The translations under genes and the position numbers were made by a program. From Teichococcus aerophilus (GTDB lineage: Bacteria > Pseudomonadota > Alphaproteobacteria > Acetobacterales > Acetobacteraceae), in contig NZ_JACTVA010000005.1 in NCBI RefSeq assembly GCF_014490485.1, positions 1 through 64,000 on the forward strand: 64,000 nt of DNA, read 5' to 3'. Positions 15,327 to 63,483 of this stretch are shown here, piece after piece; within the stretch, counting starts at the first letter, position 1, and each line of letters opens with the position of its first letter. A model generated the notes under the pieces. It was given only the letters and a program-made list of their open reading frames with translations. It had not been told where the DNA came from and did not search any database.

Positions 15327-15370
15327 CCGGGGAAGGAATTCCCCGGACCCCATCTTTCGTTTGTGAGTTT
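15327..15370 (+). terminator. Dispersed hairpin-terminator family, arm 1
   Basis: The stem CCGGGGAA / TTCCCCGG closes a GGAA loop (15327-15346). It is followed by the family flank ACCCCATCTTTCGTTTGTGA. It lies about 75 bp past the hydrolase stop. This is the only arm without a facing partner of the same sequence. Confidence 0.75.
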
Positions 15371-15645
15371 TGCAGGACTGCCAGATTGACAGGTCAGCTC
15401 TTAGCGGACTTGTGCCAGCTGCGGGCCGGGTTTGGTTTTAGTGTTCGATAGCGAGCTTGATGTGCCTGGCAGTGGAGATGGGGGCATTGATGCCAACCTA
15501 TGCTGGACCCCAACGCCGGGCATTGTTGTTCAACAGCCTTACTGAGCATGCAGCCCAGCCGACACGCTGGGTGCCGGTGAATCTTTCATAAGCAACCGTC
15601 TACCAGCCTGACCTCCCCCATGTAGGAAACCCCCGAGATGGGTTT

Positions 15646-15701
15646 CCAAAGGCCCCAGGCCTTTGGCGGGGAGAGCTTGAGAGGGGCGGCGCCCCTCTCA
15701 A
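15646..15701. repeat. Two tandem perfect hairpins
   Basis: The first hairpin has a 9-bp stem, CCAAAGGCC / GGCCTTTGG, with loop CCA (15646-15666). The second has an 11-bp stem, TTGAGAGGGGC / GCCCCTCTCAA, with loop GGC (15677-15701). They sit directly downstream of the minus-strand binding-protein stop. They may act as a terminator or REP-type element. No T-tract follows. Confidence 0.6.
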
Positions 15702-15716
15702 ACCACCAGGAAAGTC

Positions 15717-17321
15717 TCAGTTCTTCTCAATATTCCAGAACACCATGACCGGGGCGTTCAGCAGGCCATGGACATTGGCGCGACGGGCATAGGGCTGGTC
15801 GTACTGCCCCAGCACCCGGTAGGGCTGCACTTCGGCCAGCCGGCGATGCAGCGCTTCGGTGGCCAGCTTGCGGGCGGCCTCGTCCGGTGCATCCACCACG
15901 GCGTTGCGCAGCCGCTCGGACTCTTCGTCGCACGGCCAGCCGATCCAGGCGCGGTCGCAGGACATGTTGGTGCCCAAGTTGGTCAGTGGCGACTGCATGG
16001 TGGGGCCGGAGGAGGTGGTGATGAAGATGTTCCAGCCGCCCTGCGCCACCGGCTCCCGCTTCCGCACCCGGGCCACCGCGGTGCCCCAGTCGGCGAAGTC
16101 GGCTTCCACGTTCATGCCAATCTGCCGCAGGGCGGAGACCGCGACTTCCGCCATCCGGCCGATGGGGGCGATTTCGCTGGTGGTGTTGATCACCACGCGC
16201 TCGCCGCGATAGCCGCTTTCAGCCAGCAGGCGGCGGGCGGTGTCCAGGTTGGGGCGGGCATAGCCCTCGGCGCCGGCCTCAGTGCCGTTGGGGCTGCCGC
16301 AGATGAAGTAGGACTGGCAGCGCGCCCACCATTGCTCGTCGCCGAAGGCAGCGGCCATGAAGTCGGCCTGGTCGGTCGCATAGGCCAGGGCCAGGCGGGC
16401 GCGCGGGTCATTGAAGGGCGGCAGCAGGTGGTTGGGCCGCAGCACCGCCTGGTTGGAAAGGTTGGTCGGCCGCTCCACCCGGATGTCCCGGTTGCGGGCG
16501 ACGGTGGGGATCAGATCCTGCGCCGGCTGTTCCCAGATGTCGATCTCGCCGGTCTGCAGCGCCGCCGCCGCCGTGGCGGGGTCCGGCATGATGATCCATT
16601 CCACCCGGTCCAGCTTCACGACGCGGCCGCCGGCCAGGCCGTCCGCCGGCTCGGCGCGGGGCTGGTAGTCGGGGTTGCGGTCGTAGACGATTCGGGCGCC
16701 GCTCTGCCAGTCGGCGCGGTTGAAACGGAAGGGGCCGCTGCCGATGGTCTGCGTCACCGCCGTCGTCGGGTCGGTCCGCGCATCGCTCTCCCGCATGATG
16801 GCGGGGATCTGGCCGATGGCGGAGCCCAGCGCGAAGGGCACCAGCGCGAAGGGGCGTTGCAGGCGCAGGGTGAAGCTGCGGTCGTCCGTCACCTCCAGCG
16901 CCGCCATGTATTCCTTCAGCTTGCCGCCCACCACGTCCCGCGCCATCCACCGGTGCAGGGAGGCGACGACGTCGCGCGAGGTGACCGGCTGGCCGTCATG
17001 GAAGCGCAGGCCCGGCCGCAGCGTGAAGCTCCAGCTCAGGCCATCCGGCGCCGTGGTGTAGTGTTCCACCATCTGCGGCTTGGGCTGCAGGTTGGAATCC
17101 CAGGCAAACAGCGTCTCGTAGATCGCCATGCCATGCATGCGGGTGATGACGATCGAGGCGAAGACCGGGTCCAGCGTCTTCAGATCCGCGTGCGGCGCCA
17201 CCCGCAGCACGCGGGGGGAAGCGGTCTGGGCCTGCGCGCCGGGGCCGCTGAGGGCCAGCGCCAGCACCGGTGCCAGGGACGTCGCGGCGAGACATCGCCG
17301 CGCGAGACGGGAAAGGCGCAT
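15717..17321 (-). CDS. Family-5 (peptide/opine-type) ABC solute-binding protein
   Basis: The 534-residue exported binding protein has a signal peptide ending near AQAQ (residue about 32). An SBP_bac_5 domain (PF00496) follows, with DLKTLDPVFAS, LRPGLRFHDGQPVTSRDVV and GSGPFRF. The ATG at 17321 gives a normal signal; an in-frame ATG at 17360 would lengthen it unnaturally. No permease or ATPase genes are nearby. A clear paralogue (similar motifs GSGPF, RNPDYxPRAEPADGLAGG, EIDxWE, EPVAQGGWN) is encoded divergently at 17814. Confidence 0.9.
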   Translation of the reverse strand: MRLSRLARRCLAATSLAPVLALALSGPGAQAQTASPRVLRVAPHADLKTLDPVFASIVITRMHGMAIYETLFAWDSNLQPKPQMVEHYTTAPDGLSWSFTLRPGLRFHDGQPVTSRDVVASLHRWMARDVVGGKLKEYMAALEVTDDRSFTLRLQRPFALVPFALGSAIGQIPAIMRESDARTDPTTAVTQTIGSGPFRFNRADWQSGARIVYDRNPDYQPRAEPADGLAGGRVVKLDRVEWIIMPDPATAAAALQTGEIDIWEQPAQDLIPTVARNRDIRVERPTNLSNQAVLRPNHLLPPFNDPRARLALAYATDQADFMAAAFGDEQWWARCQSYFICGSPNGTEAGAEGYARPNLDTARRLLAESGYRGERVVINTTSEIAPIGRMAEVAVSALRQIGMNVEADFADWGTAVARVRKREPVAQGGWNIFITTSSGPTMQSPLTNLGTNMSCDRAWIGWPCDEESERLRNAVVDAPDEAARKLATEALHRRLAEVQPYRVLGQYDQPYARRANVHGLLNAPVMVFWNIEKN

Positions 17322-19430: not shown

Positions 19431-19489
19431 CGCAGCAGCGTTCTCTGTTGCCGAACGCTGAAGGGGACGGCTAGCATCGCGTGGACCGG

Positions 19490-25940: not shown

Positions 25941-25984
25941 TTGGGGAAGGAATTCCCCAAACCCCTTCTTTTTTTGCGAGTTTG
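25941..25984 (+). terminator. Dispersed hairpin-terminator family, arm 2
   Basis: The stem TTGGGGAA / TTCCCCAA closes a GGAA loop (25941-25960). It is followed by ACCCCTTCTTTTTTTGCGAG, a real T-tract. The outer pairs are T-A here and C-G in arm 1, a compensatory change. It lies 15 bp after the LysR stop. Confidence 0.85.
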
Positions 25985-26099
25985 GTCGCGGCAAGCGATC
26001 GAGCAGAACACCGATGTGCCACGCATTACGGTCTTCGCGCGCAGCGCAGTCGAAGACCTACAGCAGGGCTACCGGTGCCCCGATCAGCAAGCCAAAACA

Positions 26100-26142
26100 C
26101 CGCAAAAGGAAGGAGGGGGTTTGGGGGAATTCACTCCCCCAA
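26100..26142 (-). terminator. Dispersed hairpin-terminator family, arm 3
   Basis: Read on the minus strand, the stem TTGGGGGA / TCCCCCAA (26121-26142) encloses GTGAAT and is followed by ACCCCCTCCTTCCTTTTGCG. It lies 20 bp past the Bug receptor stop (26162) and faces arm 2. Confidence 0.8.
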
Positions 26143-38393: not shown

Positions 38394-38437
38394 CCGGGGA
38401 AGGAATTCTCCCGGCCCCTTCTTTTCCTGCGCGTTTT
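38394..38437 (+). terminator. Dispersed hairpin-terminator family, arm 4
   Basis: The stem CCGGGGAA pairs with TTCTCCCGG (one bulged base) around GGAA (38394-38414). The flank CCCCTTCTTTTCCTGCGCGT follows. It lies 23 bp after the rfbA stop. Confidence 0.8.
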
Positions 38438-38565
38438 GGTTGTGGCCATTCGCCGCTGGGCGTAACCGCATGTCGAAAAGCGGGTCCGTAGGGGCCAAAC
38501 TCCGCTTCCAAAGCCTGTGAACTTCATCACGGCGCACCACCCCCCGCCCTGCGGCAGATCCTGGA

Positions 38566-38606
38566 CTCGCAGAAGAAATGAAGGGTCCGGGGAGTTCCTT
38601 CCCCGG
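38566..38606 (-). repeat. Dispersed hairpin-terminator family, arm 5 (no minus-strand gene)
   Basis: On the minus strand, CCGGGGAA-GGAA-CTCCCCGG (38587-38606) is followed by the family flank with ACCCTTCATTTCTTCTGCGA. No minus-strand gene ends nearby, so this arm cannot serve a local transcript. That is evidence for repeat-like dispersal. Confidence 0.7.
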
Positions 38607-44894: not shown

Positions 44895-45238
44895 TGGAAC
44901 TGATTCTCGCCCTGGCCATCGGCGTCCTGGGGGGTTCCGGCGTGTGGCTGCTGATGCGGCCGCGCACCTTCCAGCTGATCATCGGCCTCTCGCTGCTCTC
45001 CTACGCGGTGAACCTGTTCATCTTCAGCATGGGGCGCTTTCCGGTGGGGGCCCCGCCGGTGCTGGCGCCCGGCACTTCCGGCGACCCGGCCGTGTTCGCC
45101 GACCCGCTGCCGCAGGCCTTGGTGCTGACCGCTATCGTCATCGGCTTCGCCACCACGGCGCTGTTCCTCGTCGTCATGCTCGCCGCGCGCGGCCTGACCG
45201 GCGGTGACCATGTGGACGGCAAGGGGCGCGGCTCGTGA
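44894..45238 (+). CDS. mnhC: Mrp antiporter subunit C (cluster 2)
   Basis: The 114-residue NuoK-like protein has three membrane segments, FQLIIGLSLLSYAVNLFIF and DPLPQALVLTAIVIGFATTA. It starts in a TGATG junction with the AB subunit and overlaps mnhD by 4 bp (GTGA). It is a typical MrpC/PhaC in length and motif. Confidence 0.95.
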   Translation: MELILALAIGVLGGSGVWLLMRPRTFQLIIGLSLLSYAVNLFIFSMGRFPVGAPPVLAPGTSGDPAVFADPLPQALVLTAIVIGFATTALFLVVMLAARGLTGGDHVDGKGRGS

Positions 45239-46851
45239 ACGGCTGGATGCAACATCTGGGCATCGCCTCCATCATCCTGCCATTGCTGGTGGGCGCGATC
45301 ATGATCCCGCTGGAGGACCAGAAGGGCCATTGGCGCGCGGCGCTCGGCATCACTTCCACCGTCCTGCTGTTGGCCATCGCCATCACCCTGGCCTGGCAGG
45401 CGCATCTGGGCGGCGGCGGGGAGGGGCTGGTCAGCGTCTATCGCCTGGGCAACTGGCCGGCGATCTTCGGCATCGTTCTGGTGGTGGACCGGCTCTCAGC
45501 GCTGATGCTGGTGTTGACGGCGGTGCTGGGGCTTTCGTCCCTGGTGTTCTCGCTGGCACGCTGGCAGCGCATGGGCGCGCATTTCCACGCGTTGTTCCAG
45601 TTCCAGCTGATGGGGCTGAACGGCGCCTTCCTGACCGGCGACCTGTTCAACCTGTTCGTGTTCTTCGAGGTGCTGCTGGCGGCCTCCTACGGCCTGGCGC
45701 TCCACGGCTCGGGCGTCGCGCGGGTCAAGGCGGGGCTGCACTACATCGCCATCAACCTGGCGGCGTCGCTGCTGTTCCTGATTGGCGTCAGCATGATCTA
45801 CGGCGTGGCCGGCACGCTGAACATGGCCGACCTCGCCGCCCGCATCCCGGAGATCCCGCTGGAGAACCGACCGTTGCTGGAGGCAGGGGCCGGCATCCTC
45901 GGCCTGGCCTTCCTGGTCAAGGCGGGCATGTGGCCGCTGGGCTTCTGGCTGCCGCGCACCTACTCCGCCGTCAGCCCACCGGCGGCCGCCATCTTCTCCA
46001 TGATGAGCAAGGTCGGCGTCTACGCCATTCTGCGGCTCTCCCTGCTGCTGTTCAGCAACGATGCGGGGGATTCCGTCGGCTTCGGTGGCACCTGGATCCT
46101 GGCCGGCGGCATTCTGACCATCGGCTTCGGCGCCGTCAGCGTGCTGGCGACGCAGGATCTGTCCCGGCTGGCCGGGGCGAGCGTGCTGATCTCCTCCGGC
46201 ACGCTGCTGGCGGCCGTGGGGGCGGAGCAGGTGGCGGTGACCAGCGGGGCGCTGTTCTACCTGGCGACCTCCGCGCTCTCGATCGGCGCGCTGTTCCTGT
46301 TGATCGAGTTGCTGGAGCGCGGCCGTGATGTCGGCGCCGACGTGCTGGCGGTGACCCTGGAAGCCTTCGGCGACGGCGATGACGACGACGATGACGAAAC
46401 CGATGAGATCGGCGTCGCCATCCCGGCCACCATGGCGGTGCTGGGCCTCAGCTTCCTGTGCTGCGCGCTGCTGCTGGCCGGGTTGCCGCCGCTGTCCGGC
46501 TTCGTCGCCAAGTTCGCCATGCTGAGCGGCATCCTGAACCCCGAGGGTCTGGGCGGCCGCGTCGCCTCCGTCTCCCCGGGCGGGTGGGCGCTGCTGGTGG
46601 CGCTGGTGCTCTCCGGCCTCGCCACGGTGCTGGCGATGACCCGCGCCGGTATCCGCAGCCTCTGGGCCACCTCCAGCCGTTCCGTCCCCCGCGTCGGCGT
46701 CATCGAGATCGCGCCGGTGCTGCTGTTGCTGTCGCTCTGCGTCGGCATGACAATCGGGGCCGGGCCGATGCTGCGCTACACCCACGCAGCGGCCGAGGCG
46801 CTGCACGCGCCCCGCGACTACATCCGCAACGTGATCGGGCAGAACCCATGA
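45235..46851 (+). CDS. mnhD: Mrp antiporter subunit D (cluster 2)
   Basis: The 538-residue NuoM-like protein has Glu145 in LFNLFVFFE (TM5) and Lys229 in FLVKAGMWPLGFWLP (TM7), so it is predicted to be proton-conducting. An acidic insertion (GDGDDDDDDETDE, residues about 378-390) sits in a loop between two membrane helices. The start GTG overlaps mnhC, and the stop overlaps mnhE. It differs from the cluster 1 MnhD in length (538 against 491 residues), mostly because of this loop. Confidence 0.95.
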   Translation: MNGWMQHLGIASIILPLLVGAIMIPLEDQKGHWRAALGITSTVLLLAIAITLAWQAHLGGGGEGLVSVYRLGNWPAIFGIVLVVDRLSALMLVLTAVLGLSSLVFSLARWQRMGAHFHALFQFQLMGLNGAFLTGDLFNLFVFFEVLLAASYGLALHGSGVARVKAGLHYIAINLAASLLFLIGVSMIYGVAGTLNMADLAARIPEIPLENRPLLEAGAGILGLAFLVKAGMWPLGFWLPRTYSAVSPPAAAIFSMMSKVGVYAILRLSLLLFSNDAGDSVGFGGTWILAGGILTIGFGAVSVLATQDLSRLAGASVLISSGTLLAAVGAEQVAVTSGALFYLATSALSIGALFLLIELLERGRDVGADVLAVTLEAFGDGDDDDDDETDEIGVAIPATMAVLGLSFLCCALLLAGLPPLSGFVAKFAMLSGILNPEGLGGRVASVSPGGWALLVALVLSGLATVLAMTRAGIRSLWATSSRSVPRVGVIEIAPVLLLLSLCVGMTIGAGPMLRYTHAAAEALHAPRDYIRNVIGQNP

Positions 46852-47333
46852 GGCGGCTGTTTCCCCACCCCCTCATGTCGATCGCGCTGTTCGCCATGTG
46901 GATGTTGCTGAACGAGACCGTCGCCCCGGGACCGGCGCTGGTCGGGCTGGTGCTGGCCGTGGCGGCCGGCTGGGTGATGACGTCCCTGCGCCCGACCCGC
47001 AGCCGCATCCGCCGGCCGGGTGTGATCCTGCGGCTGGCCTTGCATGTCATCGTGGATATCGCCCGTTCCAACCTCGCGGTCGCGCAGGTCATCCTGCGGC
47101 CGCGCAAGGACCGGCGGCAGGGCTTCCTGCGCGTGCAACTGGCGCTGCGGGACGAGAACGCGCTGGCGGCGCTGGCCTGCATCCTGACCGCGACGCCGGG
47201 CACCGCCTGGGTGGAATACGACACGGAAACAGGCTGGCTGCTGCTGCATGTGCTGGACCTGATCGACGAGGACAGCTGGATCAGCATCATCAAGCAGCGC
47301 TACGAGCAACCGCTGATGGAGATCTTCCAATGA
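46848..47333 (+). CDS. mnhE: Mrp antiporter subunit E (cluster 2)
   Basis: The 161-residue MrpE protein has an N-terminal double membrane segment (LFAMWMLLNETVAPGPALVGLVLA). Its soluble half contains ILTATPGTAWVEYD and LLLHVLDLIDEDSW. ATPGT and the HVLD motif are family hallmarks. It overlaps both neighbours by 4 bp. It is more canonical than the cluster 1 copy at 38. Confidence 0.95.
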   Translation: MRRLFPHPLMSIALFAMWMLLNETVAPGPALVGLVLAVAAGWVMTSLRPTRSRIRRPGVILRLALHVIVDIARSNLAVAQVILRPRKDRRQGFLRVQLALRDENALAALACILTATPGTAWVEYDTETGWLLLHVLDLIDEDSWISIIKQRYEQPLMEIFQ

Positions 47334-47611
47334 CCGTCGCGCTGCTGACCTGGTCGCTCCTCGCCGCGCAATTGATGCTGGGCGCTGCCATGCTCTGCGC
47401 CACCTACCGCGTGCTGAAGGGGCCGCGGGCGCAGGACCGGGTACTGGGTCTCGATACGCTCTACGTCAACGGCATGCTGATGCTGCTGACCTTCGGCATC
47501 CGGTCCGGCACCACGCTGTATTTCGAGGCGGCGCTGGTCATTGCCCTGCTGGGCTTTGTCAGCACGGCGGCGCTCGCCAAGTTCCTGATGCGGGGCGAGG
47601 TGATCGAATGA
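47330..47611 (+). CDS. mnhF: Mrp antiporter subunit F (cluster 2)
   Basis: The 93-residue membrane protein has the MrpF loop RVLKGPRAQDRVLGLDTLY and three hydrophobic segments. The ATG overlaps the mnhE stop by 4 bp, and the TGA overlaps the mnhG ATG. Confidence 0.95.
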   Translation: MTVALLTWSLLAAQLMLGAAMLCATYRVLKGPRAQDRVLGLDTLYVNGMLMLLTFGIRSGTTLYFEAALVIALLGFVSTAALAKFLMRGEVIE

Positions 47612-47970
47612 ACCACGCCGCCGACCTGCCGCTCTGGGCGGCCATTCCCGTGGCGCTGCTGCTGCTGCTCGGCTCCGGGCTGGCGCTGACCGGTTCCATC
47701 GGCCTGCTGCGGCTGAAGAGCTTCTACGAGCGCCTGCATGCGCCGACCATCGGCACTTCCTACGGCATCTTCTGCGTGCTGCTGGCCTCGGTGATCTTTT
47801 TCACCGTGATGCAGAGCCGGTTGGTGATGCATGAGGTGCTGATTGGCATCTTTGTCGTCGTCACCACGCCGGTGACGCTGATGCTGCTGGGCCGCGCCGC
47901 GCTGCACCGTGACCGGTTGGAGGGGAAGGACCCGACCCATCCGGTGGAGCAGCGCGAGGCTGCGGAGTAA
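47608..47970 (+). CDS. mnhG: Mrp antiporter subunit G (cluster 2)
   Basis: The 120-residue MrpG protein has TGSIGLLRLKSFYERLHAPT and a following helix pair, with a polar C-terminal tail of about 25 residues. It is the last gene of the classical six-gene order AB-C-D-E-F-G and is followed 7 bp later by a family hairpin terminator. Confidence 0.95.
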   Translation: MNHAADLPLWAAIPVALLLLLGSGLALTGSIGLLRLKSFYERLHAPTIGTSYGIFCVLLASVIFFTVMQSRLVMHEVLIGIFVVVTTPVTLMLLGRAALHRDRLEGKDPTHPVEQREAAE

Positions 47971-47976
47971 GGACGG

Positions 47977-48022
47977 CCGGGGGAAGGAATTCCCCCGGAC
48001 CCCCATCTTTTGTTTGCGAGCT
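47977..48022 (+). terminator. Dispersed hairpin-terminator family, arm 6
   Basis: The 9-bp stem CCGGGGGAA / TTCCCCCGG closes a GGAA loop (47977-47998). The flank ACCCCCATCTTTTGTTTGCG follows. It lies directly after the mnhG stop. Confidence 0.9.
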
Positions 48023-48176
48023 TGGAGTACGACTGAGACGGGTTGACGCTACGGGGCGTGAGCTACGCGACAGAGATTTGGCTGCGTTACTTACGCAATC
48101 CCCGCTTATAGACGCGGCATGGTGCCCATCGGCTGGTCCACTCGTCCAAGCCTCATCCGAAGCCGCACTCCAAACA

Positions 48177-48219
48177 CCGCGAAAGGAAGATGGGGGTTTG
48201 GGGGAATTCCTTCCCCCAA
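48177..48219 (-). terminator. Dispersed hairpin-terminator family, arm 7
   Basis: On the minus strand, the 9-bp stem TTGGGGGAA / TTCCCCCAA closes a GGAA loop (48198-48219) with flank ACCCCCATCTTCCTTTCGCG. It lies 14 bp after the stop of the amino-acid binding protein and faces arm 6. Confidence 0.85.
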
Positions 48220-48232
48220 CCTGACTGTCCTC

Positions 48233-49261
48233 TCAGCGCATCGGCAGTGGGTAGTGCAGGCCTCCCCGCGTCCACAGCTCGTTCGGGCCGCGCGCCAGGC
48301 CAATCGGGGTGTTGGGGCCCATATGGCGGTCATAGATCTCGGCGTAGTTGCCGACGGCCTTGACCACATTCACCACCCAGGCCGGGTCCACCTTCAGCGC
48401 CTGGCCCAGTTCTGGCGAGACGCCCAGCAGGCGGCGCGTGTCCGGGTTGGTGCTCTCCCGGCGCATCTGGTCGGCATTGGCGGCGGTGACGCCGCGCTCC
48501 TCGGCTTCCATCAGCGCGTTGACGTACCAGCGCACCAGGTCGAACCACTCGTCGTCGCCACGGCGCACATAGGGGCCGTAGGGTTCCTTGGAGAAGCGCT
48601 CGGACAGGATGGTCCAATCGGCGGGCGCCTGCAGGGAGGAGCGGCCGGCGGCGAGCTGCGAGGCATCGGTGCCGAAGGCATCGCAACGGCCGGACTGCAG
48701 CGCGGCGAAGGCCTGGTCGGTGCGCTCGAACAGGATGGGGGTGAAGGTCATGTTGTGCGTGCGGAAGTAATCCGCCGTCACCAGCTCGTTGGTGGTGCCG
48801 GAGACGAGGCAGATGGTGGCGCCGCCCATCTCCGACGCCTTGGTGATGCTTGCATTGGCGCGGACCATGAAGCCGTGCCCGTCATAGAAGTACGGCGTGA
48901 TGGCGCGCAGGCCGAGCGTGACGTCGCGCATCATGGTGTGGGTGCTGGTGCGGAACAGCACGTCGATCTCGCCCGAGCTGAGGGCGGTGAAGCGGGTGGA
49001 CGAACTCAGCGACTGGAAACGCACCTTGCTGGCGTCGTTGAACAAGGCGACGGCCAGGCCGCGGCAGAGATCGGCATCCAGGCCCTGCCAGACGCCGCGC
49101 GCATCGGGGATGGCGAAGCCGGCGATGCCGGTATGGATGCCGCAGACGAGCTGCCCGCGCGCCCGTATGGCGTCCAGCGTTGCACCGGCGCGGGCTGGCG
49201 CCGCCAGGGTCAAGAGGGTGGCCATGGCGGCCACGGTCGCCAGCATTGCACGCTTCAGCAT
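48233..49261 (-). CDS. Amino-acid ABC transporter substrate-binding protein (AapJ/BztA type)
   Basis: The 342-residue exported SBP_bac_3 protein has a signal peptide ending near ARA (residue about 25), then LDAIRARGQLVCGIHTGIAGFAIPDARG. It also has GLDADLCRGLAVALF and TYDGxGFM-like YFYDGHGFMVR. This is the pattern of general L-amino-acid receptors AapJ/BztA. GGGAAGG precedes the ATG at 49261. The usual aapQMP genes do not follow. A MocR-type regulator is divergent. Confidence 0.9.
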   Translation of the reverse strand: MLKRAMLATVAAMATLLTLAAPARAGATLDAIRARGQLVCGIHTGIAGFAIPDARGVWQGLDADLCRGLAVALFNDASKVRFQSLSSSTRFTALSSGEIDVLFRTSTHTMMRDVTLGLRAITPYFYDGHGFMVRANASITKASEMGGATICLVSGTTNELVTADYFRTHNMTFTPILFERTDQAFAALQSGRCDAFGTDASQLAAGRSSLQAPADWTILSERFSKEPYGPYVRRGDDEWFDLVRWYVNALMEAEERGVTAANADQMRRESTNPDTRRLLGVSPELGQALKVDPAWVVNVVKAVGNYAEIYDRHMGPNTPIGLARGPNELWTRGGLHYPLPMR

Positions 49262-49489
49262 GAATTCGCCTTCCCGGATTTTTTCTACCGCCCAGGGTGC
49301 GAAGCCGGAACGACGCAAGTCAAGCCGCTTGGCCGCGCCGATGCGTGCCGCCGCACCGGCAGCCGCGCAAAGCCCGGGCATTCGGGGCGCCTTTGCCCAA
49401 GATCGGGTCGCCAGCCATGCCGCTGCTTGCGCCACGGTGCCGGATGGCGGAGGTATGGGCGCAGCAATGTCACGGCCGGGAAGCGAGCA

Positions 49490-50872
49490 ATGAGCGACGG
49501 CACGGCACCGGGCTGGACCCCGGCGATCGAGCGGGGGCAGGGGCCGCTCTACCTGGCCATCGCCGACCGGATCGACGCCGACATCGCCGCTGGCAGGTTG
49601 GCGGCAGGCGCGCGGCTGCCACCGCAGCGGGTGCTGGCGGACCTGCTGGGCATCGACTTTACCACCGTCAGCCGTGCCTATGCCGAGGCCGCGCGGCGCG
49701 GGCTGGTGCGCAGCCGGGTGGGGCAGGGCACCTTCGTCCGCCCGCCGCTGGCGACCGCCACGCCCGGCGGCGTCGACCTCAGCATGAACCTGCCGCCGCG
49801 CTTCGAGGATGCCGCATTGGAACGGCGCCTGGCGCAGTCCGCTGGGCTGCTGGAGGAATCCGGCGGGCTGGACCTGCTATTGCGCTACCAGGAGCCGGGC
49901 GGCGCGCTGGCCGACCGGGAAGCGGGCGTCCAATGGCTGGCCGGGCGCGTCCCTGGCTTGGTGGCGGAGCGGGTGGTGGTGTGCCCGGGCGCGCAGGGGG
50001 CGCTGGCCGCCACGCTCGGCCTGCTGGCGGCGCCGGGGGAGACCATCCTGGCCGAGGCGCTGACCTATCCGGGCTTCCGCAGCCTGGCGGCGCAGTTGCG
50101 GTTGCGCGTGGCTGGCGTTGCGATGGACGCCGAAGGGATCGTGCCCGATGCCCTCGATGCCGCCTGCCAAGCGGTATCGCCGAAGGCGCTGTATTGCACG
50201 CCGGTGTTGCAAAACCCGACCACCGCGACGATGTCGCTGGCCCGGCGGCAGCAGATCGTCGCGATTGCCCGGCGCCATGGGGCGCCGATCATCGAGGATG
50301 ACGCTTACGGCTTGTTGCCCCGTGCGGCGCCGCCCGCCCTCGCGGCGTTGGCGCCGGAGCTGGTCTACTACATCGGCGGGCTGGCCAAGGTGCTCTCCCC
50401 AGCCTTGCGGATCGCCTATCTGGCGGCGCCGGATGCCCGCCAGGCGCAGCGCGTGGCCGCAGGCATCCGCGCCACGGCGGCCATGGCGTCGCCGCTGACG
50501 GCCGCGCTGGCCACGCGATGGATTGGCGATGGCACCGCGCTCACGGTGCTGGGCGCCATCCGCGCGGAGACCGCCGCGCGTCGTGCATTGGCCGCGCAGT
50601 ATCTGCCGGAATTCGCCGCAAGGTCGCAGCCGGACAGTTTCCATCTGTGGCTGGCCCTGCCGCCGGCCTGGACGCGGGCCGACCTGGCCGGAAGGCTGCG
50701 CACCATGGGCATCGGCGTGGTGGTCAGCGATGCCTTCGCGGTAACATCGGCACCCGAAGCAGTACGCATCGGCTTGGGCGCCGCGCGCACGCGGCGGGAA
50801 CTGGCAATCGGGTTGCAGGCCATCGCGGACCTGCTGTCGCAGCCGCCGGCGCTGTCCTCCACCGTGGTGTGA
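49490..50872 (+). CDS. MocR-type GntR/aminotransferase regulator
   Basis: The 460-residue protein has an N-terminal GntR winged helix (residues about 15-85; PLYLAIADRIDADIAAGRLAAG and YAEAARRGLVRSRVGQGTFV). An aminotransferase class I/II domain follows, with PGAQGALAATLGLL, the PLP-facing D in EDDAYG, and the Schiff-base lysine in GGLAKVLSPALRIAYL. MocR proteins sense PLP or amino compounds and usually control the divergent gene, here an amino-acid receptor. The ATG is preceded by GGGAAGCGAG. Confidence 0.9.
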   Translation: MSDGTAPGWTPAIERGQGPLYLAIADRIDADIAAGRLAAGARLPPQRVLADLLGIDFTTVSRAYAEAARRGLVRSRVGQGTFVRPPLATATPGGVDLSMNLPPRFEDAALERRLAQSAGLLEESGGLDLLLRYQEPGGALADREAGVQWLAGRVPGLVAERVVVCPGAQGALAATLGLLAAPGETILAEALTYPGFRSLAAQLRLRVAGVAMDAEGIVPDALDAACQAVSPKALYCTPVLQNPTTATMSLARRQQIVAIARRHGAPIIEDDAYGLLPRAAPPALAALAPELVYYIGGLAKVLSPALRIAYLAAPDARQAQRVAAGIRATAAMASPLTAALATRWIGDGTALTVLGAIRAETAARRALAAQYLPEFAARSQPDSFHLWLALPPAWTRADLAGRLRTMGIGVVVSDAFAVTSAPEAVRIGLGAARTRRELAIGLQAIADLLSQPPALSSTVV

Positions 50873-50911
50873 CGGCAAGTCTGAGGCCTGTCGACGCTTG
50901 GAGAAGGAAAG

Positions 50912-50957
50912 CCAGGGGAAGGAATTCCCCTGGAACCCCATCTTTCTTCTGCAGGTT
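50912..50957 (+). terminator. Dispersed hairpin-terminator family, arm 8
   Basis: The 9-bp stem CCAGGGGAA / TTCCCCTGG closes a GGAA loop (50912-50933). The flank AACCCCATCTTTCTTCTGCA follows. The A-T third pair is a further compensatory change compared with arms 1 and 2. Confidence 0.85.
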
Positions 50958-51095
50958 TGAGTTTGTGCTGACGGACTGAGAGGGTGGCGCAATCGGGTGT
51001 TTCAAAGCCACGCGGACGGAACTGTCAGTTGGAGAAGCCATGATGATTTGCGCTCACGGCCTGGACTGAGCGCAATCCGCGAAAGCCGCCCAGAA

Positions 51096-51135
51096 CCGCA
51101 GAAAAAAGAAGGGGCTTGGGGATCTCATTCCCCAA
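51096..51135 (-). terminator. Dispersed hairpin-terminator family, arm 9
   Basis: On the minus strand, TTGGGGA / TCCCCAA (51116-51135) has a six-base loop ATGAGA and the flank GCCCCTTCTTTTTTCTGCGG. It lies 38 bp past the end of the siderophore operon and faces arm 8. Confidence 0.8.
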
Positions 51136-51172
51136 CCCTCCGTTTTGCCGCAACGCCTAATGCCGATCCTCC

Positions 51173-52258
51173 CTACTCGGCGCTTCCCTTGCCGGCACCC
51201 TCCTCGACGCCCTGGCGCCAATAGGCGGCGGCGCGGAAATGGCCGCGGGGCAGGCCACGTTCCTGGCCCCAATGGGTGCGCAGGGCGACGGCCGTCTGCG
51301 CTTCGCAGGCGGCCCAGGCGGAGAGTTCGGGCTCCTCCGGCCAGGGAGCGTTGCGGACGGCTTCGAGGAGGGCGGCGCCGTAGGGGCGGCCGTCGCGGTG
51401 CAGCCAGCGCACCGGCAGGCCGGGCGGGTGGTGCAGCGGCTGTTCCTCCAGCCGGTCTGCCACCTCGATGAAGGCAAGGCCACGGGCGTCGGCAGGCATG
51501 GCTTCCAGGGCGCGGGCAATGACCGGCAGGGCGGTCTCGTCGCCTGCGATGAGCGTCCAGCCACGCAGCGGCACCTGGCCGCCGCCGGGGCCGGAGACGC
51601 CCAGCCAATCGCCGGGCTTCGCATGGGCGGCGAAGCGAGAGCCGGGGCTGGCATCGCCATGCAGGACGAAATCGATCTCCATCTCGCCCGCCGCCAGGTC
51701 GATGCGGCGGATGGTGTAGGTACGGCGGGTCAGGCTGCAGTCGTCGAACACCGGCTGGCCGCTGGGGCTGAGCCGGGGCCAGACGGGTTCCGCATCGCCC
51801 TGGCCAGGCGTGGGGATGAGCAGCTTCACATGCATCATCTCGGCATCGAAGCGGCCGAGGTCGTCGCCCCCCAGCGTCACGCGGCGCATGCGCGGGGTGA
51901 CGTCCGCCACCTGCTTCACGCGGGTGACGCGGAAATTATGCGGGCGGGCATCGGCGGTCGCGGCGCCATCGCCGGCCCAGACGATGCCGAGGTTTTCGCC
52001 AGGGACAAAACTGTCTAGATGGCCGGCGACGACGACCTGGGCATCCTCCAGCCGGTCGGCGTCGATGGCCTCGATCCGCATCGCGATGGCACCGGGTTCC
52101 AACCGCAGCCGGGCAACGCCGCCTGGGAAGGCGATGCGGCTGTCCTCCACCGGGCCATCTACCTCCAACCCGTGCTCCAGCATGTGCTCGCGGAACCTGG
52201 CGATCAAGTGGGCAGGCTCGGCGGTGCTGGCGCGGGCTTCGGCGATCAGGGTGCTCAA
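51173..52258 (-). CDS. Siderophore-interacting protein with DUF2218 domain
   Basis: The 361-residue product has an N-terminal DUF2218 domain (about 1-95; HMLEHGLEVDGPVEDSRIAFPGG in parts). A SIP FAD-binding ferric reductase domain (about 105-350) has RRYT-like SLTRRTYTIRRIDL, FVLHGDASPGSRFAAHAKPGD and GDETALPVIARALE. Such proteins reduce ferric siderophores in the cytoplasm to release iron. It is the last gene of the iron-uptake operon, 14 bp after the binding protein gene. Confidence 0.9.
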   Translation of the reverse strand: MSTLIAEARASTAEPAHLIARFREHMLEHGLEVDGPVEDSRIAFPGGVARLRLEPGAIAMRIEAIDADRLEDAQVVVAGHLDSFVPGENLGIVWAGDGAATADARPHNFRVTRVKQVADVTPRMRRVTLGGDDLGRFDAEMMHVKLLIPTPGQGDAEPVWPRLSPSGQPVFDDCSLTRRTYTIRRIDLAAGEMEIDFVLHGDASPGSRFAAHAKPGDWLGVSGPGGGQVPLRGWTLIAGDETALPVIARALEAMPADARGLAFIEVADRLEEQPLHHPPGLPVRWLHRDGRPYGAALLEAVRNAPWPEEPELSAWAACEAQTAVALRTHWGQERGLPRGHFRAAAYWRQGVEEGAGKGSAE

Positions 52259-52272
52259 GGGGTCGTCCTTCG

Positions 52273-53373
52273 TCAGAATGCGCCGGCGGGCAGGTCGGCC
52301 CAGTGCGGCCCGGCCATCGGAATCGCGAGGAAGCGGTCGTTCAGGCCCGCCAGGGTGGTGCCGGGGTCGAGATCCCCGCAGCGTTCGGGGTGGAACCAGC
52401 GTGCCAGCGCCTGCAGCATCACGATATGCGCGGGGGTGTCGTTGAAGCCGTGCCAGATGGTATGGGCACGCCCGGCCTTCACCGCCGGCAGCACGTCCAG
52501 CTGGCTGCGCCGGAGCACGGCCACCAGTTCCCGCTGCGCGGCCTCCAGTGTAACGCCGTTGCCGAGCGGAATGCCGCCCCTGCCGGCATAAGGGCCGCCC
52601 GTGGCCACGTAGATGGCCGGGTCCTGCGTGATGACGCTTTCCAGCGACACGTCGCCGATGGCGCCCAGGATCAGGTCGGCGCCGATATTATGGCCGCCGG
52701 CGAAGCGGATCATCGAATCGAAGGCGCCCTGGCCGGGGGAAGCGCAACAGGCGGTGCCGCCGGCATGGGCGTGGATGAACACCTTGGGCCGTGCCGCGCC
52801 GATGCCTTTCAGGCGATCGGCGATGGTATCGCGATGCGCGACGTAAAAGGCGTCGAAGGCAGCGGCCCGGTCCTCCCGCCCCATCACCTTGCCCAGGACG
52901 TCCATGCTGCGGCGTGTGTGCTTCATCGGGTCGTAGAAGAAGTCGATGGCGACGACGGGGATGCCCATGTCGGCCAGGCGCTCGGCCAGCCCGTCGCGCA
53001 GCACGCCGAGCCCGGCGACGACGATATCCGGTTGGCTGTCCAGCAGCTTCTCCAGCGACAGTCCGTCAGCCTGGCCGCGCAGGACGATGGGGATGGCGTC
53101 GGCGCGTGGGAAGCGGGCGCGGACCGTGGCGTAGTCTGGCGGGTTCATCCGCCGCAGGTCGTCGCCCCAGCCAGTGACCAGAGAGACCGGGTCCGGATGC
53201 AGCAGGCCCATGGCGAGCACATGCCGCGCCTGGGTCAACACGATGCGCCGGGCCGGGCGGGGGAGCGTGACTTCACGCCCCAGCACATCGACGATGCGGA
53301 CAGGGGCCTGTGCCGCGGCCAGCCTTGGGGCCGCCAGCAGCGGCAGAGCGCTGAGAAGGCTACGGCGATTCAT
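52273..53373 (-). CDS. Iron-siderophore ABC transporter binding protein (FecB/BtuF fold)
   Basis: The 366-residue periplasmic-binding protein (PF01497) has signal MNRRSLLSALPLLAAPRLAAAQ and then VRIVDVLGREVTLPRPARRIVL, LEKLLDSQPDIVVAGL and VIAIDFF-like VVAIDFFYDP. It is predicted to deliver ferric siderophore to an ABC importer. No FecC/FecD permease or ATPase is in the operon. Two adjacent cysteines (GGTACCASPG, near residue 210) are unusual for the family and may bind ligand or form a disulfide. Confidence 0.85.
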   Translation of the reverse strand: MNRRSLLSALPLLAAPRLAAAQAPVRIVDVLGREVTLPRPARRIVLTQARHVLAMGLLHPDPVSLVTGWGDDLRRMNPPDYATVRARFPRADAIPIVLRGQADGLSLEKLLDSQPDIVVAGLGVLRDGLAERLADMGIPVVAIDFFYDPMKHTRRSMDVLGKVMGREDRAAAFDAFYVAHRDTIADRLKGIGAARPKVFIHAHAGGTACCASPGQGAFDSMIRFAGGHNIGADLILGAIGDVSLESVITQDPAIYVATGGPYAGRGGIPLGNGVTLEAAQRELVAVLRRSQLDVLPAVKAGRAHTIWHGFNDTPAHIVMLQALARWFHPERCGDLDPGTTLAGLNDRFLAIPMAGPHWADLPAGAF

Positions 53374-53452
53374 GCGGCGGCTTCCGGTGGTTGGACGCGG
53401 TCCATCCGCGCCGGTCGCGTGGCGCGGATGGGCAGATGACCGCCCGGGATGC

Positions 53453-55666
53453 TTACCAGCGGGCGCGGACCGAGCCGAGCACGACGCGGCCGGTGCCGTA
53501 GTAGCAGGCGGTCAGCGAGGAGCAGCTGGCGATGTAGTCCTTGTCCTCGATGTTCTGCGCATTCACGGCGACTTCCAGACCACGCGCGCTTTCGAAGCGG
53601 GCGCCGAGGTCGTAGCGGATGGCGGCATCGAACAGCGTGACGGCATCGACCTTGAAGGTATTGATGTCGTTGCCGTAGGTGGAGCCGACATAGCGCACGC
53701 CGCCGCCAAACTGCAGGCCGCGCAGCGGGCCCTCGAGGAAGCGGTAATTGGCCCAGCCGCTGGCCATGTGGTTCGGCACCTGCGGCACGCGGTTGCCGCT
53801 GACACCGGCGTTGTTGGAGCTGGTGATCTCCGCATCGATGTAGGAATAGGCGCCGAGCAGGTCGAGCCCGTCGGTCAGGCTGGCGCGGCCTTCCAGCTCG
53901 ATGCCGCGCGAGCGGATCTCGCCCTGCGGGACGCTGTAGGTGGTGTAGAGCGGGTCCTGCGTCAGCACGTTCTGCTGGCGGATCTGGTAGGCGGCCAGTT
54001 GGATGAAGCTGTTCATGCCCTGCGGCTGGTACTTGATGCCGACCTCGAACTGCTCGCCCGTCGTGGGCGAGAAAGTGCCGCTGCCGCGCTGCGGCGCCGC
54101 CGTGCCGGTGTTGGGCAGGAACGAGGTGGAGTAGCTGGCATAAGGCGCCAGGCCGTTGTCGAACAGGTACAGCGCGCCGGCGCGCCAGGTGACCTTGTCG
54201 TCGAACTGCGAGGATTGCGCGGCGTTGGCGCCGCTGGCCTGGTGGGTGGTGGTGCCGATATCGGCGCGGTCATAGCGGACGCCGACATTGAAGCGGAAGC
54301 GATCCAGCGCGATCTGGTCCTGCGCGTAGAAGCCGACCTGGTCGATTTCCTGGTTCGTCAGCCCGGCGGGGGTGGTCGAGATCGTGGGAATGACCTGGTA
54401 GTAGCTGGGCGCATAGACATCGAGGCTCGGCGCGGTGCCGAGGCCCTGGCGCGCGCGGGCCGAGGTGCGCTGCCAGTCGACGCCGAACAGCGCGGTGTGC
54501 TCCAGCGGGCCGGTCGTGAAGGTAGCCTGCGCCTGATTGTCCAACGCATAGGCGTTGGCGTGGTCCGACACATAGGTGGAGCCACGCGTGCCGGTGCGGC
54601 CATTCACGCCGCGGACGGAGATGACGTTCACCTCGGCATCGATATGCGAGTAGCGGAAGTTCTGCCGCACGGTCCAGATGTCGCTCAGCCGGTGCTCGAA
54701 CTGGTAGCCGATCGAGGCCTGGGTGCGGGTGAAGCGGTTGAAGTTGGGGTCGCCGCCCTGGAAGTTGCGCGGGATGCGGCCGAACTGGCTGGGCAGCACG
54801 GTGCCTACCGCCGGCACGAAGTTGTAGAAGCCGCCTTCCGGATCGTACTGGTAGGAGGCGAGGACGGTGAGGCTTGTGTCCTCGTCCGGCCGCCAGGTCA
54901 GCGCGGGGGCGATGGCAATCCGCTCCTCCCGCGCGAAGTCGTATTGGGTGTCCGAAGTGCGGGCGATGCCGGTGAGGCGATAGAGGAACTTGCCGTCCTC
55001 GGTGGCCGGGCCGGTGAAGTCGAAGGCCGTCTGCAGCAAGGCGTTGGAGCCGGCCTCAATCCGCACCTCGTTGGAGGCAACGGGGCTGGGGCGGCGGCTG
55101 ACCAGGTTGACGAGGCCGCCGGCGCCGGTCTGGCCGTACAGCACGGAGGCCGGGCCGCGCAGTACCTCGATCCGCTCCATCAGCCAGGGATCGGTGTTGG
55201 GCACGCCAAAATACAGGCCGCGGCCCTGGCGCAGGCCATCGAGGAAGTTGACAAAGGCGGCGCTGGTGCCCTGGCCGCCGAAGCCACGGACGAAGACGCT
55301 GTCGTAGCGCGCGGAGGGGCGTACCTCGCCCAGCACGCCGGCGGTGTAGCGCAGGGCCTGGGAGACGCTAAGCGCCGCCTGGTCGTCGATCTGGCTGCGG
55401 GTGACAACGCCGACGGACTGCGGAGCCTCGATCAGCGGCGTGTCGGTCTTGGAACCGGTGGTGGTGACGGGGGCGACGTAGCCCGGCACGCTCTCCCACG
55501 CCCGCCAGGCGGTTGCCTGCACGTTCACCTCGGGCAGCACCACCGCCGCCGGATCCGCGGCGCCAGCCTGCGCCGGAACAGGCGTTTGTGCGCCGGCCGG
55601 CAGCGCGAAGGCGAGTGCGGCGGCCGAGGCGAGGAGGAGGTGGCGCGAGGAGAGAGGGCGGTTCAT
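53453..55666 (-). CDS. TonB-dependent siderophore receptor
   Basis: The 737-residue outer-membrane receptor has a signal peptide (ending near AGAQ, residue about 27). The plug domain (about 75-180) has IEAPQSVGVVTRSQIDDQ, LRYTAGVLGEVRPSARYDS and VLYGQTGAGGLVNLVSRRP. A 22-strand-type barrel ends in a C-terminal aromatic (VRARW). The APQSV...PG pattern is that of the FhuA/FoxA/FpvA class for hydroxamate-type siderophores. It is the first gene of the operon with FecB-type and SIP genes, and a perfect palindrome lies 39 bp upstream. Confidence 0.95.
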   Translation of the reverse strand: MNRPLSSRHLLLASAAALAFALPAGAQTPVPAQAGAADPAAVVLPEVNVQATAWRAWESVPGYVAPVTTTGSKTDTPLIEAPQSVGVVTRSQIDDQAALSVSQALRYTAGVLGEVRPSARYDSVFVRGFGGQGTSAAFVNFLDGLRQGRGLYFGVPNTDPWLMERIEVLRGPASVLYGQTGAGGLVNLVSRRPSPVASNEVRIEAGSNALLQTAFDFTGPATEDGKFLYRLTGIARTSDTQYDFAREERIAIAPALTWRPDEDTSLTVLASYQYDPEGGFYNFVPAVGTVLPSQFGRIPRNFQGGDPNFNRFTRTQASIGYQFEHRLSDIWTVRQNFRYSHIDAEVNVISVRGVNGRTGTRGSTYVSDHANAYALDNQAQATFTTGPLEHTALFGVDWQRTSARARQGLGTAPSLDVYAPSYYQVIPTISTTPAGLTNQEIDQVGFYAQDQIALDRFRFNVGVRYDRADIGTTTHQASGANAAQSSQFDDKVTWRAGALYLFDNGLAPYASYSTSFLPNTGTAAPQRGSGTFSPTTGEQFEVGIKYQPQGMNSFIQLAAYQIRQQNVLTQDPLYTTYSVPQGEIRSRGIELEGRASLTDGLDLLGAYSYIDAEITSSNNAGVSGNRVPQVPNHMASGWANYRFLEGPLRGLQFGGGVRYVGSTYGNDINTFKVDAVTLFDAAIRYDLGARFESARGLEVAVNAQNIEDKDYIASCSSLTACYYGTGRVVLGSVRARW

Positions 55667-55704
55667 GTCAGGCTTCCGCTGCGGAGATAGCCTGTTGTGC
55701 CGTA

Positions 55705-55723
55705 ATTGCGACTAAGTCGCAAT
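55705..55723. promoter_or_regulatory. Perfect 9-1-9 palindrome, probable Fur-family box
   Basis: ATTGCGACTAAGTCGCAAT is a perfect inverted repeat centred on A55714. Its 9-1-9 geometry and TGCG...CGCA arms match Fur-type boxes described in alphaproteobacteria. It lies 39 bp upstream of the TonB receptor ATG and about 175 bp upstream of the divergent aldehyde dehydrogenase. The assignment to Fur rather than another iron regulator is an inference. Confidence 0.75.
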
Positions 55724-55897
55724 ACGATCCAGGCAATCTGGCCACAGGTGTGGCAAGAGTGCATCACCTGTCCGATCGCGCCTCGGAGGACCAAGGTGGC
55801 CGGGCGGGGGCTGGTGGCGGCCCGGCGAAGCGGATACTGCACCAGCCATGCGCCGGCCCGGCCGGCATGCGTCCAGGGATTCAAAGGAGCACACGCG

Positions 55898-57352
55898 ATG
55901 GATGTCGTCACGTTCGACACGCGGCAGAACCTGATCGGTGGGGAGTGGCGCCAGGCTTCGGGGCGGGAGACGATGCCGCTGCTGAACCCGTCCGACGGGC
56001 AGCGCCTGGCGGATATCGCCCGTAGCGACGCCGCCGATATCGACCAGGCCGTGGCTGCGGCGCGCGAGGCGCGGCGGGGCCCCTGGGGCCGGATGACGGC
56101 GACCGAGCGTGGGCGCCTGCTGACCACCATGGGCCGCCTGGTGCTGGAGCGGGTGGACGAGCTGGCGCGGATGGAAGCGCTGGATGTCGGCAAGCCGCTG
56201 AAGCAGGCGCGCGCCGATGCCGTGGCGCTGGCCCGCTACCTGGAATTCTACGGCGGTGCCGCCGACAAGGTGCATGGCGAGACCATTCCGTACCTGGATG
56301 GCTACACCGTGCTCTCCATCTACGAGCCGGTGGGCGTGACGGGGCATATCGTGCCCTGGAACTATCCGATGCAGATCATCGGCCGCAGCGTCACCGCCTC
56401 CCTCGCCATGGGCAATGCGGTGGTGATCAAGCCGGCTGAGGAAGCCTGCCTGACCGCGCTGGCCTATGCCCGCATCGCCGAGGAAGCCGGCTTCCCGGCC
56501 GGCGCCGTCAACATCGTCTCCGGCACCGGGGAGGAAGCGGGCGCGGCGCTGGCGGCGCATCCCGGCATCAACCACATCTCCTTCACCGGCTCCGTCGTGG
56601 TCGGCGGGTTGGTGCAGGCGGCGGCGGCGAAGAACGCGGTGCCGGTGACGCTGGAGCTGGGCGGCAAGTCGCCGCAGATCGTCTTCGACGATGCGGACCT
56701 GGAAGCGGCGCTGCCGTTCCTCGTCAATGCGGGCATCCAGAATGCCGGCCAGACCTGTTCGGCGGCGTCACGCATCCTGGTGCAGCGCGGTGTGCATGAC
56801 CGCGTGCTGAAGGCGATGGCCGAGCGCTACACGGCGCTGCGCGTCGGCCCGGCGATGTCGGATCTCGACATGGGGCCCCTCGTCTCCGCCCGGCAGCAGG
56901 AGATCGTGCGCGGCTATATCGACGGCGCGCGGCAGGATGGGCTGGAAGTGGCAGCGCAGGGCAGCATCGGCAAGGATGTGCCTGGGGGTGGCTACTACGT
57001 GCCACCGACCCTGGTCTCCCGCGCCACCAGCGACAGCCGGCTGGCGCAGGAGGAGATCTTCGGCCCCGTGCAGGTCGTCATTCCGTTCGAGGACGAGGCG
57101 GATGCGCTGCGCATCGCCAACGGCACCGATTACGGACTGGTGGCGGGCGTCTGGACCGCCGATGGCGGCCGGCAGATGCGGATGGCGCGGGGCATCGAGA
57201 CCGGGCAGGTCTTCATCAACAACTACGGCGCCGGCGGCGGCGTGGAACTGCCCTTCGGCGGCGTGAAGCGCTCCGGCCACGGACGGGAGAAGGGGTTCGA
57301 GGCGCTGTATGGGTTTGCCTCGCTCAAGACCATCGCCATCCGGCACGGCTAG
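55898..57352 (+). CDS. NAD(P)-dependent aldehyde dehydrogenase
   Basis: The 484-residue ALDH (PF00171) has catalytic Cys287 in NAGQTCSAASR and general base Glu253 in LELGGKSPQ, at the usual spacing of 34. IVPWNYPMQIIGRS and FGGVKRSGHGREKG complete the pattern. It oxidises an aldehyde to the acid in the cytoplasm, and the betaine/4-aminobutyraldehyde-type subgroup is plausible but unproved. AAAGGAG precedes the ATG at 55898. It is divergent from the siderophore operon, so the palindrome at 55705 could affect it too. Confidence 0.9.
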   Translation: MDVVTFDTRQNLIGGEWRQASGRETMPLLNPSDGQRLADIARSDAADIDQAVAAAREARRGPWGRMTATERGRLLTTMGRLVLERVDELARMEALDVGKPLKQARADAVALARYLEFYGGAADKVHGETIPYLDGYTVLSIYEPVGVTGHIVPWNYPMQIIGRSVTASLAMGNAVVIKPAEEACLTALAYARIAEEAGFPAGAVNIVSGTGEEAGAALAAHPGINHISFTGSVVVGGLVQAAAAKNAVPVTLELGGKSPQIVFDDADLEAALPFLVNAGIQNAGQTCSAASRILVQRGVHDRVLKAMAERYTALRVGPAMSDLDMGPLVSARQQEIVRGYIDGARQDGLEVAAQGSIGKDVPGGGYYVPPTLVSRATSDSRLAQEEIFGPVQVVIPFEDEADALRIANGTDYGLVAGVWTADGGRQMRMARGIETGQVFINNYGAGGGVELPFGGVKRSGHGREKGFEALYGFASLKTIAIRHG

Positions 57353-57364
57353 AAGCAACGCAGG

Positions 57365-57393
57365 AAGGCCGGGAAGCTCTATCCCGGCCTTTT
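57365..57393 (+). terminator. Intrinsic terminator of the aldehyde dehydrogenase gene
   Basis: A 10-bp stem, AAGGCCGGGA / TCCCGGCCTT, with loop AGCTCTA is followed by TT. It lies 12 bp after the stop. It has the family's position but not its GGAA loop. Confidence 0.8.
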
Positions 57394-57534
57394 CCGGTCA
57401 TTCGCTTCAAGCTGCGAAGTATGTTCCAGGCTTCGCAGCTTTCAACAACGACGTTGCGGAACGGCATATTTCCGCCCGAGGCACATCCGTACCGTGGCAC
57501 CGGGCCAGCCCAATCCTTCCGGCGGCCTTCTTAA

Positions 57535-57574
57535 CGCGCAAAAAGAAGAGGGGCCCGGGGAATTCCTTCCACGG
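57535..57574 (-). terminator. Dispersed hairpin-terminator family, arm 10
   Basis: On the minus strand, CCGTGGAA-GGAA-TTCCCCGG (57555-57574, one mismatch) is followed by GCCCCTCTTCTTTTTGCGCG, the family flank with a T-tract. It lies 22 bp after the AEC carrier stop. Confidence 0.8.
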
Positions 57575-63477: not shown

Positions 63478-63483
63478 GGCTGG

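Follow-up and report, generated by a model that had tools for sequence, protein, structure and literature searches.

Judged from its sequence, the genome of Teichococcus aerophilus carries, at hundreds of gene ends, a hairpin whose downstream tail is a mirror image of the hairpin's own 3' strand and changes in step with it. We encountered these elements in a 64,000-nucleotide stretch of contig NZ_JACTVA010000005.1 (positions 1 to 64,000; hereafter the window), where an earlier reading of the letters, here called the original prediction, had described ten dispersed hairpins. All ten are present where that reading placed them, with compensated closing pairs. A hairpin together with its tail is referred to below as an arm, and arms with the stem GGGG(G)AA/TTCCCC(C) as type A. 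The source genome (G000) amounts to 5.66 Mb in 140 contigs, of which about 1.17 Mb was read in detail; the genus set comprised 17 genomes, labelled in the same way, 16 of them besides G000. The mrp antiporter A subunit encoded in the window has its best match in Roseomonas rosea, at 83% identity, which makes a Roseomonas-type genus the most likely one.

The hairpin family and its mirror tail

The genome scan that had been proposed bore out a copied element with many genomic copies. The core GGGGAANGAATTCCCC has 565 forward and 558 reverse matches in G000 at up to two mismatches, against 0 and 2 for a reversed-pattern control. Some palindromic copies are scored on both strands, with 6 coincident pairs within 137 matches. 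In these 137 matches the loop reads NGAA, its first base being G in 58%, A in 24%, T in 15% and C in 2%, so that the GNRA loop put forward by the original prediction as a conserved feature does not stand. Conservation past the hairpin and T-tract, which had also been claimed, is found: beyond the stem it runs through a C-run, a T-run and then, weakly, CTGcGAGTTT. The onset of the T-run lies about 8 nt past the stem, rather than directly adjoining it.

In type A arms, tail and stem agree in run length. The tail C-run and the stem G-run measure 4/4 in 79 G000 arms, 4/5 in 5, 5/4 in 3 and 5/5 in 16, and the lengths are equal in 95 of 126 arms (the run rule). Among relatives, including one from another genus, the corresponding counts are 27, 0, 4 and 59, with equal lengths in 87 of 101 arms; these sets pool loci from several searches, and some G000 and overlapping loci were included in part of the covariation tests. 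Because runs of G cannot separate a mirror repeat from a direct repeat, we sought hairpins with mixed purine strands. In the fetched part of G000 this second class is represented by the hairpin GAGAGGGGC followed by CTCTCCCCG in seven places, including 15667-15699 of the window. In relatives, stem and tail vary jointly, as GAAGGGG/CTTCCCC, GAAAGGG/CTTTCCC, GGAGGGG/CCTCCCC, GGAGAGGG/CCTCTCCC, GGGGAGGG/CCCCTCCC and AGAGGG/TCTCCC.

Across the second class, T in the tail tracks A in the stem and C tracks G at positions -3 to -6 (association p of 0.009, 8e-8, 2e-4 and 2e-5, respectively, for 40 unique combinations, aligned by where the C-run stops). With each of the 9 distinct purine strands represented by its majority tail (56 rows in all), the mirror register scores 5.44 out of 6, compared with 4.09 in permutations, none of 20,000 of which did as well; the direct-repeat register of the same 9 strands gave no signal (3.22 versus 3.34 permuted). 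Exact informative 7-mers are arranged as a mirror in 11 cases and directly in 1 in G000, and in 47 and 2 cases, respectively, in the genus loci. Type A stems altered on both strands were also sought, and only 2 of 31 variant arms are fully paired; one (C35) has a tail that matches the mirror at 9 of 10 positions, and the other (C46) at about 4 of 6.

Folding energy by itself is not striking for the window arms: folded with flanks, the copy at 25941 has a z score of -5.3, and the remaining nine range from -2.3 to +0.9. No Rfam family scored above its gathering threshold in the window. In 11 loci the only such match was to signal recognition particle (SRP) RNA, elsewhere in locus L187, and no element matched; Clostridiales-2 matches near elements fell far below gathering (best 23.8 versus 58.6 bits). 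Canonical type A cores (e.g., 25941-25960 of the window) all contain GAATTC, the EcoRI recognition sequence, and such sites thus cluster at gene ends in G000. Runs of N occur inside or beside repeats at L180, L197 and L205 (G006), and on contig C13 of G000 near 18,150, where the run adjoins a tandem GAGCCTT-type repeat. These runs may be gaps in the assembly or may reflect masking, and repeat copies could be undercounted.

Position, pairing and interior of the elements

For the analysis of position, genes were called with a codon-usage caller written for this work rather than taken from annotation. In the first 856 kb of G000, none of 131 arms lies inside a called gene, and of the 98 arms located downstream of a gene on their own strand, 76 begin 6-58 nt past its stop codon, in agreement with the terminator-like placement proposed earlier. 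The 131 arms resolve into 55 tail-to-tail pairs and 21 singles. Pair spacing is 200-219 bp in 24 of the 55 pairs, and in the many pairs that enclose a copied interior module (described below) the hairpins are mostly spaced near 215 bp. Over 1.166 Mb, plus-then-minus order accounts for 76 of 169 intervals between neighbouring arms, 73 of these at no more than 400 bp. Of the junctions between called genes in G000, such plus-minus pairs occupy 28 of the 118 convergent, 23 of the 494 codirectional and 1 of the 113 divergent ones, and at convergent junctions the arm nearest the stop is rightly oriented for all 68 arms.

Arms in the relative G016 are mostly single, and 31 of 33 have the same tail; the tail is therefore not merely part of a long inverted repeat. 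The G016 stretches were picked around known matches, so densities there carry no meaning. These arms comprise 15 at convergent junctions, 17 at codirectional ones (7 oriented with the gene, 10 against), 0 at divergent ones and 1 within a called gene, and 2 arms in G007 are divergent. The position of the arms argues for a putative role in ending transcription, and their mixed orientation at the codirectional junctions of G016 leans toward action at the DNA level or in both directions.

The window illustrates this arrangement. The original prediction had all tails pointing the same way; five of the ten hairpins (26121, 38587, 48198, 51116 and 57555) are on the minus strand with tails pointing left, and the copies consequently form the tail-to-tail pairs 25941/26121, 38394/38587, 47977/48198 and 50912/51116. 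In the first pair, the plus-strand arm at 25941..25983 (hairpin 25941-25960, G-run 4, C-run 4) faces the minus-strand arm at 26095..26142 (hairpin 26121-26142, both runs 5) between convergent genes. The second, between codirectional genes, joins 38394..38437 (plus; imperfect hairpin 38394-38414, both runs 4) to 38563..38606 (minus; hairpin 38587-38606, G-run 4, C-run 3, which breaks the run rule). An arm at 47977..48023 (plus; hairpin 47977-47998), 3' of the mrp operon, pairs with 48174..48219 (minus; hairpin 48198-48219) between convergent genes, and every run here is 5. All runs are 4 in the arms at 50912..50958 (plus; hairpin 50912-50933) and 51092..51135 (minus; hairpin 51116-51135), which are likewise placed between convergent genes and enclose an interior at 50959..51091. 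The type A arm at 15327..15371 (plus; hairpin 15327-15346, tail ACCCCATCTTTCG..., both runs 4) has as its convergent partner the second-class arm at 15667..15699 on the minus strand, with the hairpin GAGAGGGGC/GCCCCTCTC at 15679-15699 and the exact mirror tail CTCTCCCCG at 15667-15675. For the arm at 57531..57574 (minus; hairpin 57555-57574, G-run interrupted by T, C-run 4) no type A partner was found, and an ordinary hairpin followed by TTTT at about 57367-57393 faces it. Judged by eye, 8 of the 10 type A arms in the window obey the run rule, the exceptions being 38587 and 57555.

Two simple explanations of the tail were tried and rejected. An outer helix between upstream purines and the tail gives a duplex energy of -9.21 versus -9.29 permuted, with 137 of 200 permutations as good (177 arms); the 25941 copy does fold as a 22-bp bulged stem of this kind. 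Nor do paired arms have tails suited to pair with each other: tail similarity is 8.98 within and 9.61 between pairs (72 pairs), whereas hairpins of the same pair resemble each other slightly more than others do (as good a value in 6 of 2000 permutations). With no covariation between upstream sequence and tail, unmatched tails within pairs and a T-run that does not adjoin the stem, simple reasons for the tail fail.

The interiors of 33 of the 55 pairs, among them 50959-51091 of the window, form one homologous cluster, and the other 22 cluster with nothing. This module includes a long palindrome of its own with a conserved flank, in either orientation; many interiors carry the palindrome CGCCGGAGGTC-nnn-GACCTCCGGCG and then ACTG..GGTTCAGCC. 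A 131-nt interior query has matches in at least 9 of the 17 genus genomes (up to 40 candidates scored per genome), and among the 40 scored of 270 candidate interiors in G000 only the query itself exceeds 93% identity. In G013, G001, G002, G015 and G003 this interior is bordered by other hairpins, namely type B (e.g., GGGGTGACAGTGTCACCCC) and outer purine/pyrimidine hairpins, and the type B pattern occurs in 16 of 58 genomes, every one in the genus. As these comparisons read, the plan of the element is retained while its end sequences vary between species.

Extragenic palindromes in inverted pairs are the anatomy of REPINs, and miniature inverted-repeat transposable elements (MITEs), RIME and the Caulobacter CIR are short repeats of composite build that occupy intergenic DNA and have inverted ends. 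The arms share extragenic palindromes, inverted pairs and hundreds of copies with repetitive extragenic palindromic (REP), BIME and REPIN systems that have a RayT. The RayT/REP system suggested by the original prediction was not found, however: PF01797 (Y1, RayT-type) has 0 matches in G000, with control genomes positive, and the 17 genus genomes yielded one partial match of 55 aa (E = 3.7e-4). Unlike MITEs, RIME and CIR, the elements lack target-site duplication (real pairs equal mismatched pairs among 55 pairs in G000), occur as single arms too, and have arms that are swapped between species while the interior stays; terminal inverted arms are present, yet unmatched within a pair.

Distribution among relatives

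Conservation of the flank across the genus, which the original prediction had named as support for its reading, is found. The hairpin is present in 16 of the 17 genus genomes. Forward matches per genus genome range from 0 to 465 (no more than one mismatch), and outside the genus more than two matches per strand were found in one other genus only (G027, with 7 and 10). A narrow second-class pattern matched G000 alone among 150 family genomes, a result that says little about range as only 3 of these are of the genus. No exact mirror tail was found among 80 loci from other taxa (1.4 Mb in total), although at 7-19 kb per locus this does not show absence.

The presence of an element at a given locus varies among relatives. 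The arm that follows the mrp operon is absent in 12 of 12 relatives whose loci reach that point; a different gene comes next in these, which means that they are not empty sites in the strict sense. In one relative (L140, from G005) the operon ends in a hairpin rich in A/T, with long runs of T and of A (TTCTTTTTTGGAAAAAAGAA...), unlike the G/C-rich arms. The genes that flank two elements of contig C13 are joined differently in relatives: in G006, G001 and G007, those with ends at query positions 8281 and 15135 are only about 46-63 bp apart, a gap too short to hold the element. The gene order of relatives breaks at both of the G000 elements concerned (108475-108711 and 115170-115404), and several nearby element-free junctions are retained, too few for a test. 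These breaks agree with the instability reported for loci of the TM_ECO repeats, to which we return below.

A possible third strand at gene ends and its alternatives

A mirror repeat has the symmetry of an intramolecular triplex, and not that of an RNA stem or of a dimeric protein site, and it is for this reason that we favor a triplex. Each arm consists of three segments that succeed one another on the same strand: purines first (GGGG(G)AA in type A), next their Watson-Crick partner TTCCCC(C) and, past a short linker, the tail. The tail, CCCC(C)WT and then the T-run, is the mirror of the second segment and hence the parallel complement of the first; the purine, pyrimidine and third-strand segments do stand in mirror register on one strand, which is the layout of an intrastrand triplex. 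The tail would occupy the stem's major groove as its third strand, which may be why the mirror is kept; the motif would be of the pyrimidine type on the arm strand and of the purine type on the opposite strand of the DNA. Folding on transcription or opening would stall or release RNA polymerase at the gene end, and the arm would be an orientation-tolerant terminator or roadblock whose pairs serve convergent genes. We put the probability of such a gene-end terminator or roadblock, its tail explained by the third strand, at a little under one half (about 0.45). A farther-reaching proposal is on the doubtful side: that triplex-capable hairpins are a standard gene-end device, in which selection keeps the tail for its use as third strand, several classes follow one plan, and the fold stops polymerase at hundreds of ends from either side. 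The mirror relation in any case accounts for the tail more specifically than does the bound factor suggested by the original prediction, which had overlooked the tail-to-tail pairing, the common interior module and the mirroring and covariation of the tail. Taken as a whole, the earlier observation is partly confirmed and its interpretation partly supported.

Several points weigh against a triplex terminator. Position -7 of the second class shows no association (p 0.23). When all purine-rich hairpins are considered, the direct-repeat control also beats permutations: in relatives outside type A the z scores are 7.5 for the mirror and 6.1 for the direct register, and in G000 they are 5.5 and 2.5, with strong matches chiefly mirror (20 versus 6 direct in relatives and 7 versus 2 in G000). 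In AGGGGG, the commonest second-class stem, the outermost tail place is A rather than T in 13 of 20 rows, the lone GAAGGG row misfits the mirror, and 31 of 126 type A arms violate the run rule; the copies are also related, so that rows are not independent. A terminator scan of window positions 45001-64000 found 4 sites, compared with 7.5 expected in shuffles, and flagged one arm only, read from the other side. In addition, C+.G-C triads want acid pH. According to Holder et al. (2015; PMC4666352), PIT/BoxC elements were without terminator activity in earlier work, in vivo dimethyl sulfate (DMS) footprinting gave no support for stable triplexes, and purine-motif triplexes cannot form in RNA.

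The BoxC/PIT/TM_ECO motifs described in that paper are the closest comparison. They too have three consecutive same-strand segments that give a stem and a third strand, and TM_ECO is likewise G/C-rich, dispersed, intergenic and variable in copy number among close relatives, with some close inverted pairs (5 cases in MG1655). In the classification used there, however, the arm strand falls in class III and its complement in class I, whereas TM_ECO is class II. The arms number about 1,000 pattern matches, compared with 23 TM_ECO copies in MG1655 and a maximum of 143 per genome; they sit just past stops, whereas TM_ECO is reported to follow no orientation or distance rule; and, unlike TM_ECO as described there, their stems come in several sequences, every one with a mirror tail to match, and they have a T-run and an interior module. 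The same paper names Rhodospirillum photometricum as rich in G/C triplex motifs. By inspection, rather than a consensus scan, the arms do not conform to the TM_ECO/BoxC consensus CCCTCNCCC-N3-6-GGGNGAGGG-N3-GGGNGAGGG (PMC4666352). We regard them as a variant beside the BoxC/PIT/TM_ECO motifs, differing in sequence, class, copy number and location.

This likeness also provides the alternative that survives best, although we consider it rather unlikely: that the arms are passengers of the BoxC/PIT kind, triplex-capable repeats that spread without a role in transcription, are tolerated at gene ends because they do least harm there, and are linked to rearrangement. The range of copy number across the genus and the absence of arms from the mrp 3' end of relatives would follow, as would the altered gene order at the two C13 elements, whose flanking genes are close together in three relatives. 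A passive passenger would also be expected to shun divergent junctions, and TM_ECO loci are reported to be more rearranged than controls (PMC4666352). The closeness to stop codons fits a passenger less well, as TM_ECO is reported to show no such distance rule, and the conservation of the T-run and further tail past the mirror also counts against it.

Intrinsic (Rho-independent) terminators resemble the arms in having a stable hairpin past the stop, a downstream T-run and use between convergent genes. It is nevertheless unlikely that the arms are ordinary terminators of this type spread as copied subfamilies (4-4-4 and 5-5-5), with the tail matching by descent and not by structure. Subfamilies could account for the sequence after the C-run in G000, which is nearly always ATC in 5-G arms and TTC or ATC in 4-G arms, and for a few arms in which the same hairpin is followed directly by the T-run (L278:973, in G016). 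But the T-run normally starts some distance off the stem, stem, loop and tail are conserved genus-wide, and the tail mirrors the stem. Both run lengths match in G000, G007, G016 and 12 more genomes, including one of another genus, and the second class mirrors with different sequences, which descent of a single tail cannot yield.

A cap at the RNA level, in which the pyrimidine tail of the mRNA folds over the hairpin (class III, compatible with RNA) and shields the 3' end from exonucleases, seems improbable. The segment order and T-rich tail do fit a pyrimidine-motif triplex, which is described as possible in RNA (PMC4666352), and the stop-nearest arm is always rightly oriented at convergent junctions of G000; the mixed codirectional orientation in G016, however, means that many transcripts would have the purine version. 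Least of all do we expect a REPIN- or MITE-like mobile element whose transposase recognises the arms as terminal repeats: the preferred distance between inverted arms, the shared interior and the species-specific copy number would suit it, but G000 lacks a Y1 transposase (other transposase families were not searched), target-site duplication does not exceed the mismatched-pair control, tails are no more alike within than between pairs, the arm occurs singly in G016, and none of the 40 scored G000 interiors other than the query itself is more than 93% identical to it.

Our literature search found no published account of mirror-tailed gene ends in this genus. For bacterial intrastrand triplex motifs, Holder et al. 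(PMC4666352) reported stable triplexes in vitro, with no in vivo footprint and no function. About 1,000 pattern matches at gene ends, together with mirror covariation across species, offer natural variants for probing triplexes. The antiparallel covariation tools in use overlook this symmetry, and the arms suggest that conserved post-hairpin tails should be checked for it. If the farther-reaching proposal of a standard gene-end device is correct, these bacteria would have a type of terminator in which a third-strand tail replaces the adjoining U-tract, and covariation in mirror register would be comparative evidence that intrastrand triplexes matter in living cells.

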